A stretch of DNA of 64,000 nucleotides, from NCBI GenBank assembly GCA_021464245.1, contig JADCRB010000106.1, positions 1,024,138-1,088,137 of the forward strand. Reading direction: 5' to 3'. Both the position numbers and the translations under genes were made by a program. Of the stretch, positions 14,688 to 28,618 are shown piece after piece (positions within the stretch are counted from its first letter, which is position 1; the number at the start of each line of letters is the position of its first letter). The notes under the pieces are model-generated. The model was not told where the DNA came from. It worked only from the letters and a program-made list of their open reading frames with translations, and searched no databases. The stretch comes from Carallia brachiata. Taxonomy: Eukaryota > Streptophyta > Magnoliopsida > Malpighiales > Rhizophoraceae.

Positions 14688-15084
14688 TGTTAGTCCCTTG
14701 AACACTTAGCATGCTGGAGTTAGTGGCACCTTGCACCAATTCTTAGCATTGGATTTTGGAGTGGCTGGGCACTCCTTGAGGCAAGATGAAAGCTGAGAGG
14801 GTTAGCGTAGGCAAGAGCCTACATGTGGGTCCCAGTGTGGACCAAGGTTGGGGCTGGACAAAATATGCTAGGCTACATGTTCGTGGCCTCCATCAGATGG
14901 GCTATGGGCTTGGGCTAAGAAGCCCAAAACATGAGACTGGGTCTTGGCCAAGTCTACATGAAATTGCATGGCACTGCATGGCACCGACTCTCCTACGATG
15001 TGTACAACATGGAGACATGTGAGTGTGGCTTATTCCAGTAGGCCAAGCACTGGGATAATGCTCATCCAATCGCGCATCGCTACG

Positions 15085-15230
15085 GATCGTGGGTAGATAA
15101 GGCTTATCGAGATCAAGTGATGGATGATCGTGGGAGACAAGGCTTATCAAGATCAAGTCATGGATAAGATCATGGGAAGATGAGGATGATCAACCATGAT
15201 AGAGATCGTGGGGGGATAATGTTTATCTCC
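15085..15230 (+). repeat. ~40-bp subrepeats in LTR U3
   Basis: GATCGTGGG(T/A)AGA..GGCTTATC..GATCAAGT recurs at about 15085, 15125, 15168 (degenerate) and 15204, spacing 36-43 bp, ahead of the TATA box. The same series occurs in the other LTRs (about 28999-29135, and antisense 31795-31925). Short repeated U3 blocks are commonly enhancer modules in plant LTRs; that role is inferred. Confidence 0.65.
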
Positions 15231-15257
15231 AAGCCCTTGATAGCTAGGGGTGTCAGC

Positions 15258-15267
15258 TATATATAGA
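15258..15267 (+). promoter_or_regulatory. LTR TATA box (CTATATATAG)
   Basis: CTATATATAG followed by ACCCTATGGG, placed two thirds into the LTR and conserved in all full LTR copies. This fits the U3 promoter; transcription would start a few tens of bases downstream. Confidence 0.65.
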
Positions 15268-15555
15268 CCCTATGGGTTTGTCATTTGTACTCAGTAAGAG
15301 AGAAATCATTGAGCGAGAAAGAGTGAAACACTATCGAGAGTTCAGTGGCTGTTCCTTTGTATTACTTTAAGTTAAAGTAATAAAGGTTGGGAAAGGTTCC
15401 CGTATATGCTCTTGTGTCTCTTTTGAGTGTGTGAGTTGTGTGCCTACTTACAATGTTCCACTGTGAAATCCTTGTGTGTGCAGTTGGTTGAGACTATGTG
15501 TGACTTAATGCCATCATAAGGCAAACTTTTGAGTGAGAAAATTAGCCTTGTGACA

Positions 15556-25239: not shown

Positions 25240-26068
25240 NNNNNNNNNNNNNNNNNNNNNNNNNNNNNNNNNNNNNNNNNNNNNNNNNNNNNNNNNNNNN
25301 NNNNNNNNNNNNNNNNNNNNNNNNNNNNNNNNNNNNNNNNNNNNNNNNNNNNNNNNNNNNNNNNNNNNNNNNNNNNNNNNNNNNNNNNNNNNNNNNNNNN
25401 NNNNNNNNNNNNNNNNNNNNNNNNNNNNNNNNNNNNNNNNNNNNNNNNNNNNNNNNNNNNNNNNNNNNNNNNNNNNNNNNNNNNNNNNNNNNNNNNNNNN
25501 NNNNNNNNNNNNNNNNNNNNNNNNNNNNNNNNNNNNNNNNNNNNNNNNNNNNNNNNNNNNNNNNNNNNNNNNNNNNNNNNNNNNNNNNNNNNNNNNNNNN
25601 NNNNNNNNNNNNNNNNNNNNNNNNNNNNNNNNNNNNNNNNNNNNNNNNNNNNNNNNNNNNNNNNNNNNNNNNNNNNNNNNNNNNNNNNNNNNNNNNNNNN
25701 NNNNNNNNNNNNNNNNNNNNNNNNNNNNNNNNNNNNNNNNNNNNNNNNNNNNNNNNNNNNNNNNNNNNNNNNNNNNNNNNNNNNNNNNNNNNNNNNNNNN
25801 NNNNNNNNNNNNNNNNNNNNNNNNNNNNNNNNNNNNNNNNNNNNNNNNNNNNNNNNNNNNNNNNNNNNNNNNNNNNNNNNNNNNNNNNNNNNNNNNNNNN
25901 NNNNNNNNNNNNNNNNNNNNNNNNNNNNNNNNNNNNNNNNNNNNNNNNNNNNNNNNNNNNNNNNNNNNNNNNNNNNNNNNNNNNNNNNNNNNNNNNNNNN
26001 NNNNNNNNNNNNNNNNNNNNNNNNNNNNNNNNNNNNNNNNNNNNNNNNNNNNNNNNNNNNNNNNNNNN
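25240..26068. other. Assembly gap of 829 N
   Basis: Unsequenced gap inside the 26S region. Any reading frame drawn across it is meaningless. Confidence 1.
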
Positions 26069-26170
26069 TAGAATCCTTGCAGACGACTTAAATATGGGAC
26101 GGGGTGTTGTAAGTGGCCTTGCTGCCACGATCCACTGAGATTCAGCCCTTTGTCGCTTCGATTAGTCCCA

Positions 26171-28272
26171 CCCTCTCCCCTCAAATCACTTTTCCAACTT
26201 TTCTTGAGTCGGCTGGGGAGGCTAACGTGCAGGCTTGGAAATCCCTAAGCTGAGCCCCTCACAAGAAACTGGATAGTTGCGTAGTGTGTTCAGGGAGGCC
26301 TACAATGAGGAACCCTCGGCAGCACGCTTGCACTGGGCACCGGGGAGGTTAGGTGTTGGACCCTCGAGTAAAGAGCCCAATAGAGTTGTTGGCACATTGC
26401 ATGGACTTGTAGAACGGGCATGGACGTGGAGATGGACTGGGCATAAGAGCAAGATGATTGGAAAATCGGCTAAGGCATTGGTCACCAAAGAAGGCTTTCA
26501 AAGGCGAATGAATGGATTGTTGGAAACTTGGACCAACTCATTGAATGGGCATGTGCTGGCCATGTCAACAAAGCCAGGTGATGGGAAAATCGGCCGGCAT
26601 GAAACCGACGAAGGAATGGATTGTTGGCACCTCGGACCGGCTCTCATTGAATGGATGTGGACATGGGCTGGGCATGTCCACGAGCAAGGTGATGGGAAAA
26701 TCGGCTAAGGCATTGGCCACCGAAGAAGGCTTGAAAACAGCCAAGGAATGGATTGTTCGCAACTTGCACCAACTTGCTGAATGGGCATGTGCTGGGCATG
26801 TCAGCAAGCAAGGTGACGGGAAAATCGGCCATAGTATGAAAATGGCCAAGCAATGGATTGTTGGCAACTTGCACCAACTCGTTGAATGGGCATGTTCTGG
26901 GCTTGTCAGCAACCAAGATGATGGGAAAATCGGCCAACGCATGAAAACAGTCAAGTAATGGATTGTTGGCACCCTGCACCAACTCATCGAATGGGCGTGG
27001 ACATGGGCTTGGCATGTCAACAAGCAAGGTGTTGCTAACTTCGGCCAAGGCACTGGCCACCAAAGGGGGATTCGAAATGACAAAGGAATGGACTCGGAGC
27101 TCGCTTGGCTCCACACACGCTGCTGCCAGCATGAGAGGTTAGCACGGGTTGCCAGTGAGGGAGGCTAGCGAGGGAGGCTAGCAAGGGATGTTAGCCGGGT
27201 AAGCACCCTAACCGTTGCACCGCACAACATGCTCAACAGTTGCATGAGGTGGCAGCGAGGAGGTTAGGCCCTAGTCCCTCGTCCAAAGAGCACGATAGAG
27301 TTGATGGCACCTTGCACTAACTCCCTTGCACCGACCCGTTGAATCAGCAAGCGAGGCTACGGGAAGATCGGCCAAGGCATTAGCCACCTAATCGGGCTCA
27401 AAACGGCCAAGAAATAGACTCAGAGCATGCTCAGCCCCACACAAGTTGCTGCCCGCAAGCATGCTCCGCACACGTTGCTGCCCGCGAGGGTGGTTAACAA
27501 AAAGCTAGGAAGGCACCCGAACAAGGGAGGGAGGTTAGCTGCGCAATGAGCTGCGACCAGCGTGCCGCTCGTTGGTCCAGCAGTTTGCCCAGCGCGTAGC
27601 ATGTGGGTGGGAGTAGACCACACGTGCACTGTGCCGCTCGTGTAGCCAGGAGCGCGCACGGCGGCCTGGGGGAGCAGCGCGCGTTGCGGGCTAGGGGAGC
27701 AGCAGGCGTGCGCGCAGGGGGCTGCTCGTCTGGCCAGCAGGGTGCGCAGCGGGCTGGGGGAGTAGCGGGCTTCTCGTCTGGCCAGCAACACGTGCGGCGG
27801 GCTTGGAGGAGCAGCGCGCTGAGGGGGGCTAGCGCGCGCACCGCATTCTGTACGTCAAGCCTGCCACGCACGAGCAGTCCTCCCAGTGCGCGTTGTGCTT
27901 CAGTCTTGCCGCGCGGGCGCAGTCTTTCAGAGCGTGCGCACAGCGACCCATGTGTCGGGCCTGCTGCGCGCACGCAATCCTCCCAGCACGCATGCCCAGC
28001 AAGTTGCGCGTAGGGCCAGCCGAGCGCGCGCAATCATCCCAGCGCGCGCGCATAGTCCTCCAGCGCGTTTTGCCTGCCCAAATGATTCGACAACCGTGCT
28101 CTCGAATTCAGAACATTACTCGGGAAACGGAACTGTCGTTCTACTCCACGTTGTTTGAACAGAGCCTTTGTCCCTCTATAGCACGACTGCCATGCCCGTT
28201 TCGTCATCGGCCCCCCTGCCATTTGGTTGGGTTAGTGTCGTGCGTGCGGTCACGGGCATGGTGAAGGAATGC
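26171..28272 (+). other. rDNA intergenic spacer and 5' external transcribed spacer
   Basis: Lies between the 26S 3' end and the 18S 5' end. Three zones are visible: 26171-27400 with subrepeats and unique sequence, 27590-28080 very GC-rich with many GCGCGC and CAGC motifs, and 28081-28272, presumably 5' ETS, directly before the 18S start. I find no clear plant Pol I start motif of the TATATA(A/G)GGG type, which may mean the promoter is degenerate. No coding gene is supported; open frames here follow from the GC content. Confidence 0.85.
26405..27095 (+). repeat. IGS subrepeats, 104 and 132 bp
   Basis: GGATTGTTGGCAACTTGCACC starts recur near 26514, 26618, 26750, 26855 and 26959, giving spacings of about 104, 132, 105 and 104 bp. 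Each unit carries GAATGGGCATGTGCTGGGC and GATGGGAAAATCGGCC. The longer unit has an extra AAGGCATTGGCCACC segment. Plant IGS subrepeats of this kind typically act as spacer promoter or enhancer blocks; that role is inferred. Confidence 0.85.
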
Positions 28273-28618
28273 TACCTGGTTGATCCTGCTAGTAGTCATA
28301 TGCTTGTCTCAAAGATTAAGCCATGCATGTGTAAGTATGAACTAATTCAGACTGTGAAACTGCGAATGGCTCATTCAATCAGTTATAGTTTGTTTGATGG
28401 CACCTGTTACTGGGATAGCCGTAGTAATTCTAGAGCTAATACGTGAAACAAACACCTACTTCTGGAAGGGATGCATTTATTAGATAAAAGGTTGACGCGG
28501 GCTCTGCCCGTTGCTCTGATGATTCATGATAACTCGACGGATCGTATGGCCAACATGCCAGCGACGCATCATTCAAATTTCTGCCCTATCAACTTTCGAT
28601 GGTAGGATAGAGGCCTAT
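28273..28618 (+). rRNA. 18S rRNA gene 5' part, interrupted by an LTR
   Basis: Begins TACCTGGTTGATCCTGC, the universal 18S 5' end, and continues collinearly for 346 bases to GGATAGAGGCCTAT, where the chromovirus LTR starts. It is closer to the plant consensus than the 3' fragments but has changes such as CTAGTAGTC for CCAGTAGTC and GGCACCTGTTACTGGGATAG. The last five bases, CCTAT, pair with CCTAC at 15556 and 20118 as the presumed target-site duplication. Confidence 0.95.

Follow-up and report, generated by a model that had tools for sequence, protein, structure and literature searches.

Pieces of a chromovirus adjoin one position of the 18S rRNA gene in both orientations in a decayed rDNA block of Carallia brachiata

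The stretch of Carallia brachiata (Rhizophoraceae) DNA analyzed here, 64,000 nucleotides from positions 1,024,138 to 1,088,137 of contig JADCRB010000106.1 (GenBank assembly GCA_021464245.1, forward strand) and referred to below as the window, is plant DNA in which a block of about 19 kb, made of decayed 35S ribosomal DNA (rDNA) and retrotransposon pieces, is flanked by satellite arrays. The retrotransposon is a chromovirus, a Ty3/gypsy element with long terminal repeats (LTRs) and a chromodomain, and three of its copies (elements A, B and C) adjoin the 18S rRNA gene at one and the same position, two in the sense and one in the antisense orientation. The pieces that form the junctions and the elements are listed below in window coordinates.

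14228–14687, plus strand: internal 3' part of element A (integrase C-terminus, chromodomain and purine-rich tract, with in-frame stops), from a three-frame reading; 85.2% identical to the antisense copy at 32307–32724.
14688–15555, plus strand: 3' LTR of element A, 868 bp, TGTTAG...TGTGACA; 84.4% identical to the full-length LTR C.
15556–16866, plus strand: 18S rRNA pseudogene of rDNA unit 1, nucleotides (nt) 342–1652 (BLASTN 87.7%; RF01960), starting with CCTACC directly after LTR A.
16876–19793, minus strand: internal part of element B, running from gag into RNase H, where it is truncated, from reading frames; identity to element C is 81% across 2.1 kb and 78% in the RNase H portion.
19794–20117, minus strand: 5' LTR of element B, first base at 20117, with about 540 bp lost inside (breakpoint near 19972; LTR matches at 20117–19974 and 19971–19796).
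20118–21593, plus strand: 18S rRNA pseudogene of unit 2, nt 342–1808 (BLASTN 85.2%, and alignment), its CCTACC start adjoining the start of LTR B.
28273–28618, plus strand: 18S rRNA pseudogene of unit 3, nt 1–346 (BLASTN 93.3% over nt 1–345; RF01960 from model position 1), ending in GGCCTAT at LTR C.
28619–29464, plus strand: 5' LTR of element C, 846 bp (BLASTN).
29465–31585, plus strand: gag, protease and the first part of the reverse transcriptase of element C, in several frames (Pfam PF03732, PF13650/PF13975, PF00078).
31584–32306, minus strand: LTR D, a fragment without its last part, inside element C; 90.0% identical to positions 1–719 of LTR C.
32307–32724, minus strand: integrase C-terminus and chromodomain joined to LTR D (Pfam PF24626 and PF00385 on 32296–32841, minus strand).
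32727–33046, plus strand: element C resumed, with RNase H and, by eye, the integrase start, then satellite from 33047 (32727–32928 matches element B; reading frames).

LTRs A and C and a plant 18S sequence were compared with the whole window by BLASTN. The 18S numbering follows a reconstructed Arabidopsis-like sequence of 1808 nt, which agrees with the copies in the window, with the Rfam alignments and with the published position, 781, of the tomato element TRRT. At junction A (sense) the LTR ends at 15555 and 18S nt 342 lies at 15556; at junction B (antisense) the first base of the LTR is 20117 and nt 342 lies at 20118; at junction C (sense) nt 1–345 occupy 28273–28617, a T at 28618 stands in place of C346, and the LTR starts with TG at 28619. 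All three are exact, with no base lost or gained. The common cut site is therefore 18S nt 342–346, GGCCTAC/CATGG, used in the sense orientation by A and C and in the antisense orientation by B. The LTR probes matched four places and the 18S probe three places in the 64 kb; each of the three 18S pieces is interrupted here. Their identity as 18S is backed by RF01960, with the stretch begun at 15556 aligning its first bases to CCUACCAUGG (model position 340 on) and the 5' part beginning at 28273; Rfam alone cannot place the junctions, as its RF01960 matches run on into the LTRs. The coincidence of the three junctions at a single 18S nucleotide in both orientations, which a first-pass annotation of this DNA had proposed, thus proved exact to the base. 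The 5-bp CCTAT/CCTAC duplication in the same proposal can be pieced together across copies, with C carrying CCTAT, but no single copy shows it on both flanks.

All copies of the element are broken by stops, frame changes and deletions. A retains its 3' end, B the stretch from the 5' LTR to RNase H, and C the 5' LTR to part of the reverse transcriptase, an inverted piece and RNase H; LTR B keeps both ends despite the internal loss of about 540 bp at 19971–19974. Pfam matches for gag, protease, reverse transcriptase, integrase C-terminus and chromodomain came from four of the seven tested pieces of elements C and D, RNase H and the integrase start are supported by reading frames only, and no integrase core was seen among the element pieces of the window. 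In element C an inverted 1.14-kb stretch of an element's 3' end (31584–32724) takes the place of about 0.6 kb of reverse transcriptase, judged against B, and RNase H is in sense again from 32727. Two bases past LTR C, at 29467, lies TAGTATCAGAGC, the primer binding site, which we take to be of the tRNA-Met type. Directly before LTRs A and D stands AAGTGGGGGTGG or AGGTGGGGGTGG, a purine-rich tract that contains T.

These features (Ty3/gypsy domains, a C-terminal chromodomain, LTRs beginning TG and ending CA) are those of plant chromoviruses. The element is probably of the Galadriel type. The chromodomain lies upstream of the polypurine tract, which excludes CRM by the criterion given in passages of PMC3605345; Tekay and Reina share the trait. 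The LTRs of 846–868 bp compare with 631 bp (Beon1), 293–503 bp (Reina), 1049–3000 bp (Tekay) and 422–1339 bp (CRM) in the available beet data, length being no definition of a clade. Most of the 82 gag homologues are unnamed, those named belong to several eudicots and ginger, and no clade label stands among the names listed; the top three show 54-57% identity over 86-99% of the query, and Vitis 48% over 91%. By our own reading against the group II description in PMC3605345, so far as that text gives it, the first and third aromatic residues of the cage are missing from the chromodomain, and it is therefore uncertain whether it reads H3K9 methylation.

CCTAC or its complement GTAGG fills 5 of the 1804 five-base windows of the reference 18S; GCCTAC occurs twice, only at 341 and 781. 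The family in the window cuts after GCCTAC at 341 and TRRT after the one at 781; in the units that carry junctions A and B the 781 word is mutated but uninterrupted. Across the window GGCCTAC occurs at chance level (5 found, 4.6 expected). A search of viral contigs with the plant 18S word gave no matches, and one of genome contigs with the junction word gave 61 stretches, all under bacterial or archaeal titles, which we take as chance.

Fixed-site insertion into a multicopy rRNA gene is familiar from the non-LTR elements R1 and R2 of the 28S and from the DNA transposon Pokey, which differ in mechanism and gene from the element here, with its LTRs, integrase and short target duplication. The first-pass annotation, in drawing its contrast with the non-LTR R elements only, overlooked Beon1 and TRRT, Ty3/gypsy chromoviruses both known at one 18S site in both orientations (passages of PMC3605345 and PMC2679016). 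Beon1 of Beta (Galadriel clade; Weber et al. 2013) lies in 18S with a target site duplication (TSD) of GTAGG at one conserved site, is found in either orientation in wild beets and maps to the nucleolus organizer region (NOR) by fluorescence in situ hybridization (FISH), according to the available text of PMC3605345. Like the copies here it is a Ty3/gypsy chromovirus within 18S, and its GTAGG is CCTAC on the other strand; its LTRs are identical and 631 bp long, whereas the copies here are decayed. The reported position is 736, where the reference 18S has no CCTAC, the nearest being at 782, so that the Beon1 site is probably the TRRT site in another numbering and not nt 342. In the available chromovirus table of the beet report, none of the 21 other rows has CCTAC or GTAGG as TSD, and its authors proposed a single ancestral integration (passages of PMC3605345).

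TRRT, which Weber et al. assign to Galadriel (the same passages of PMC3605345), occupies 18S position 781 in all seven diverged units of one bacterial artificial chromosome; six copies are in sense and one is antisense, and CTAC is duplicated (passages of PMC2679016). It resembles the copies here in its diverged rDNA units, single 18S site and both orientations; it differs in the site (781 against 342) and in its duplication, reported as 4 bp. A TRRT primer reads as 18S ...AAGCCTAC followed by TGTCACGG; we take TGTCACGG as the TRRT LTR start, which would put the TRRT cut after GCCTAC at 781–786. The TRRT and pIGS primer pairs of PMC2679016 had no exact match in the window. Insertion at one base of 18S in both orientations is thus common to Beon1, TRRT and the copies here, where it holds for the three 18S pieces at nt 342–346 with the duplication inferred across copies. 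A chromovirus at 18S nt 342 was not found described in the literature searched, in which short sequences are often given only in figures. The novel part is the 18S position (341–346) combined with a known target word; the 18S-inserting habit of chromoviruses is itself already known.

The junctions at 28618/28619 and 15555/15556 had been attributed in the first-pass annotation to one insertion. This did not hold up: the 3' part of 18S lies 13 kb upstream of the 5' part and the two LTRs are of different subfamilies, so A and C sit in different units and cannot represent opposite ends of a single insertion. Across 193 four-way LTR columns the informative sites divided 10 for AB/CD, 0 for AC/BD and 0 for AD/BC, a 10:0 split which places the sense copies A and C in different subfamilies and argues against a recent duplicate pair. 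The LTRs differ by 12.8% (A–C), 16.4% (A–B), 20.1% (B–C) and 7.9% (C–D). Junction B, in which an LTR start meets the 3' part of 18S, cannot on reasoning come from homologous exchange because exchange keeps the 18S 5' part with the LTR start and the LTR end with the 18S 3' part. The earlier argument that the antisense copy needs a separate insertion, inversion between LTRs being unable to swap the ends, therefore stands. It extends to the 8-bp 18S hairpin arms ATGGTAGG and CCTACCAT that flank the site: an inversion through them should add about 12 bases ahead of CCTACC, and B shows no such bases.

The 18S flanks of A and B were also compared at 1170 sites, omitting V4 (nt 640–765) and the nt after 1640, against the same Arabidopsis-like 18S as reference, which is not the host's own. 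Of 570 GC sites, 98 were changed in A and 111 in B; 27 were changed in both (in the same way at 23, differently at 4), where independence within site classes predicts 24.1. Identity of the flanks to the reference was 93.1% for C (another part of 18S), 87.3% for A and 85.7% for B, and the flanks of A and B differ by 18.4% in the self-comparison; the less decayed flank of C suggests insertions of different age. We regard at least two, and probably three, separate insertions as the best reading.

We therefore propose, with a probability of roughly 0.7, that a Galadriel-type chromovirus inserted repeatedly into 18S at GCCTAC (nt 341–346) in either orientation, with duplication of CCTAC. Tethering to silent rDNA repeats, possibly by the chromodomain or another part, would deliver the integration complex to the array, where a sequence preference for GCCTAC would set the exact base; a two-fold symmetric integrase complex could use the 5-bp core both ways, giving both orientations. 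The interrupted rDNA units would be silenced and escape homogenization, and would then decay mainly by C-to-T change, lose pieces by deletion, rearrange and come to lie beside satellite arrays. Recurrent use of 18S position ~342 by a chromodomain LTR element, as first suggested, is supported here. More tentative, and in our judgment somewhat unlikely, is the proposal that the integrase of eudicot Galadriel-type chromoviruses in general reads GCCTAC, lineages having settled on 781 (tomato, probably beet) or on 341 (here).

Several points weigh against repeated, targeted insertion. The copies number only three, and as each retains a single rDNA flank, none shows its own duplication. The AB/CD split could also arise from duplicates that diverged in place, and gene conversion could have kept the flanks canonical. 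At the 600 AT sites A and B were co-changed at 12 (11 identical) against 2.3 expected, and over all 1170 sites at 39 against 26.4, the excess being mostly at AT sites. We read nearly all of this AT-site excess as differences between host and reference. With an edited reference that drops 22 such sites, 25 were co-changed against 23.8 expected (P of as many or more 0.42), a result that agrees but is partly circular because the editing was done partly where A and B agree. If the excess is of that kind, A and B accumulated their flanking changes independently, as would be expected after separate insertions into normal genes or after a split that happened very early. Outside this window, TRRT copies also occur beyond rDNA (passages of PMC2679016) and spinach Galadriel signals are dispersed, as far as the available report goes. 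Banana monkey, also of the Galadriel clade, was said in the first-pass annotation to concentrate at nucleolar organizers; an NOR signal by FISH is cited in passages of PMC3605345 and PMC2956553, but the element appears, from the available text, not to be frequent in rRNA genes. For these three reasons strict targeting is no rule of the clade.

Of the alternatives, the one that survives best, and which we hold to be improbable, is the model proposed for TRRT, in which unequal crossing over or segmental duplication of the unit spread a single 18S insertion and rearrangement inverted one copy. It is favored by the cutting of all three 18S pieces at the same site, by the similar size of the LTR differences (7.9–20.1%) and the A–B flank difference, and by the AT-site excess just described; in tomato, moreover, the two LTRs of one element do not group together and CTAC is common to all seven (passages of PMC2679016). 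The tomato authors inferred inversion after insertion from identical flanks and argued for duplication and against site specificity (same passages), but their flank argument does not decide the matter because a second insertion into the same target yields the same flanks, and independent insertions would be just as likely to give a duplication at the same site. Against a single insertion stand junction B, which neither homologous exchange nor inversion through the hairpin arms would yield, and the GC sites, where most of the decay falls and co-changes are near expectation.

Less credible still is unspecific insertion into rDNA, the coincidence reflecting an accessible or fragile spot, such as the hairpin GGTAGG...CCTACC, or survival bias, with no recognition of a word. 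The site does form the 3' arm of an 18S hairpin in the RF01960 structure lines, but the TRRT site at 781 shares GCCTAC where that structure line marks no hairpin (a weak point, as no base pairs are annotated in that region of the model), and the same TSD word would be met by chance in only 5 of 1804 windows. An assembly artefact at the antisense junction is very improbable: although two runs of N (829 and 434) interrupt the window, which lies in repeats and was judged from the assembly alone, both sides of 20117/20118 are decayed (the 18S flank 14.3% from the reference, LTR B 16.4% from LTR A), collapse is unlikely given the 12.8-20.1% that separates LTRs A, B and C, and antisense copies have been described in beet and tomato.

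The rDNA remnants number three, arranged head to tail on the plus strand, as seen by Rfam, self-comparison and the BLASTN of LTRs and 18S. Unit 1 consists of 18S nt 342–1652 alone; unit 2 of 18S nt 342–1808, 5.8S and 25S from 22211; and unit 3 of 25S ending near 26190 and containing an 829-bp gap, a spacer and 18S nt 1–346. Their remaining features are as follows.

16867–16875, no strand: filler between the unit 1 18S and element B, a gap between self-comparison and BLASTN matches; probably the breakpoint of a multi-kb deletion.
21849–22004, plus strand: 5.8S rRNA pseudogene of unit 2 (RF00002, 102.5 bits).
22211–24090, plus strand: 25S rRNA of unit 2, with deletions (RF02543, model 1–2986); 3' limit approximate, the match reaching the end of the searched stretch.
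24050–26190, plus strand: 25S rRNA of unit 3, with the assembly gap at 25240–26068 (RF02543, 843 bits, from model position 793); start approximate, the match running from the edge of the searched stretch, and end by eye.

The 25S stretch at 22799–23207 is repeated at 24779–25191 (80.3% alike in the self-comparison), and two 25S remnants are therefore present, apparently of different age and joined before 24779, near or before 24100. The spacer 5' of the unit 3 18S holds degenerate repeats of about 105 bp at 26378–27131, unlike the satellite.

The satellite arrays, with monomers of about 49-53 bp, occupy 1–14.2 kb and 33–52 kb. Both end within integrase-coding sequence, that of A on the left (14228) and that of C on the right (about 33047), with monomers in the same orientation, and a short run of the same satellite lies in the opposite orientation at 62586–62813. 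Tomato rDNA is linked to a satellite of 52–53 bp monomers, comparable with the monomers that flank the rDNA block here. Derivation of the satellite from the intergenic spacer, as in tomato, was considered and rejected: TATAAAAGG has 210 plus-strand and 3 minus-strand occurrences in the window but none within 14300–33000, where part of the spacer falls in the gap. Reading frames at 54445–57181 and 59148–60510 resemble other Ty3/gypsy remnants on both strands, with a Pfam reverse transcriptase match at 54718–55098.

Whether 18S chromoviruses reflect targeted integration or duplication of one event is still disputed, and a second position, both orientations and two LTR subfamilies favor repeated integration; the question can be reduced to counting junctions in long reads. 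If our proposal is true, it would describe an LTR retrotransposon family with base-level, orientation-blind specificity for a gene transcribed by RNA polymerase I, going beyond targeting by chromatin only.

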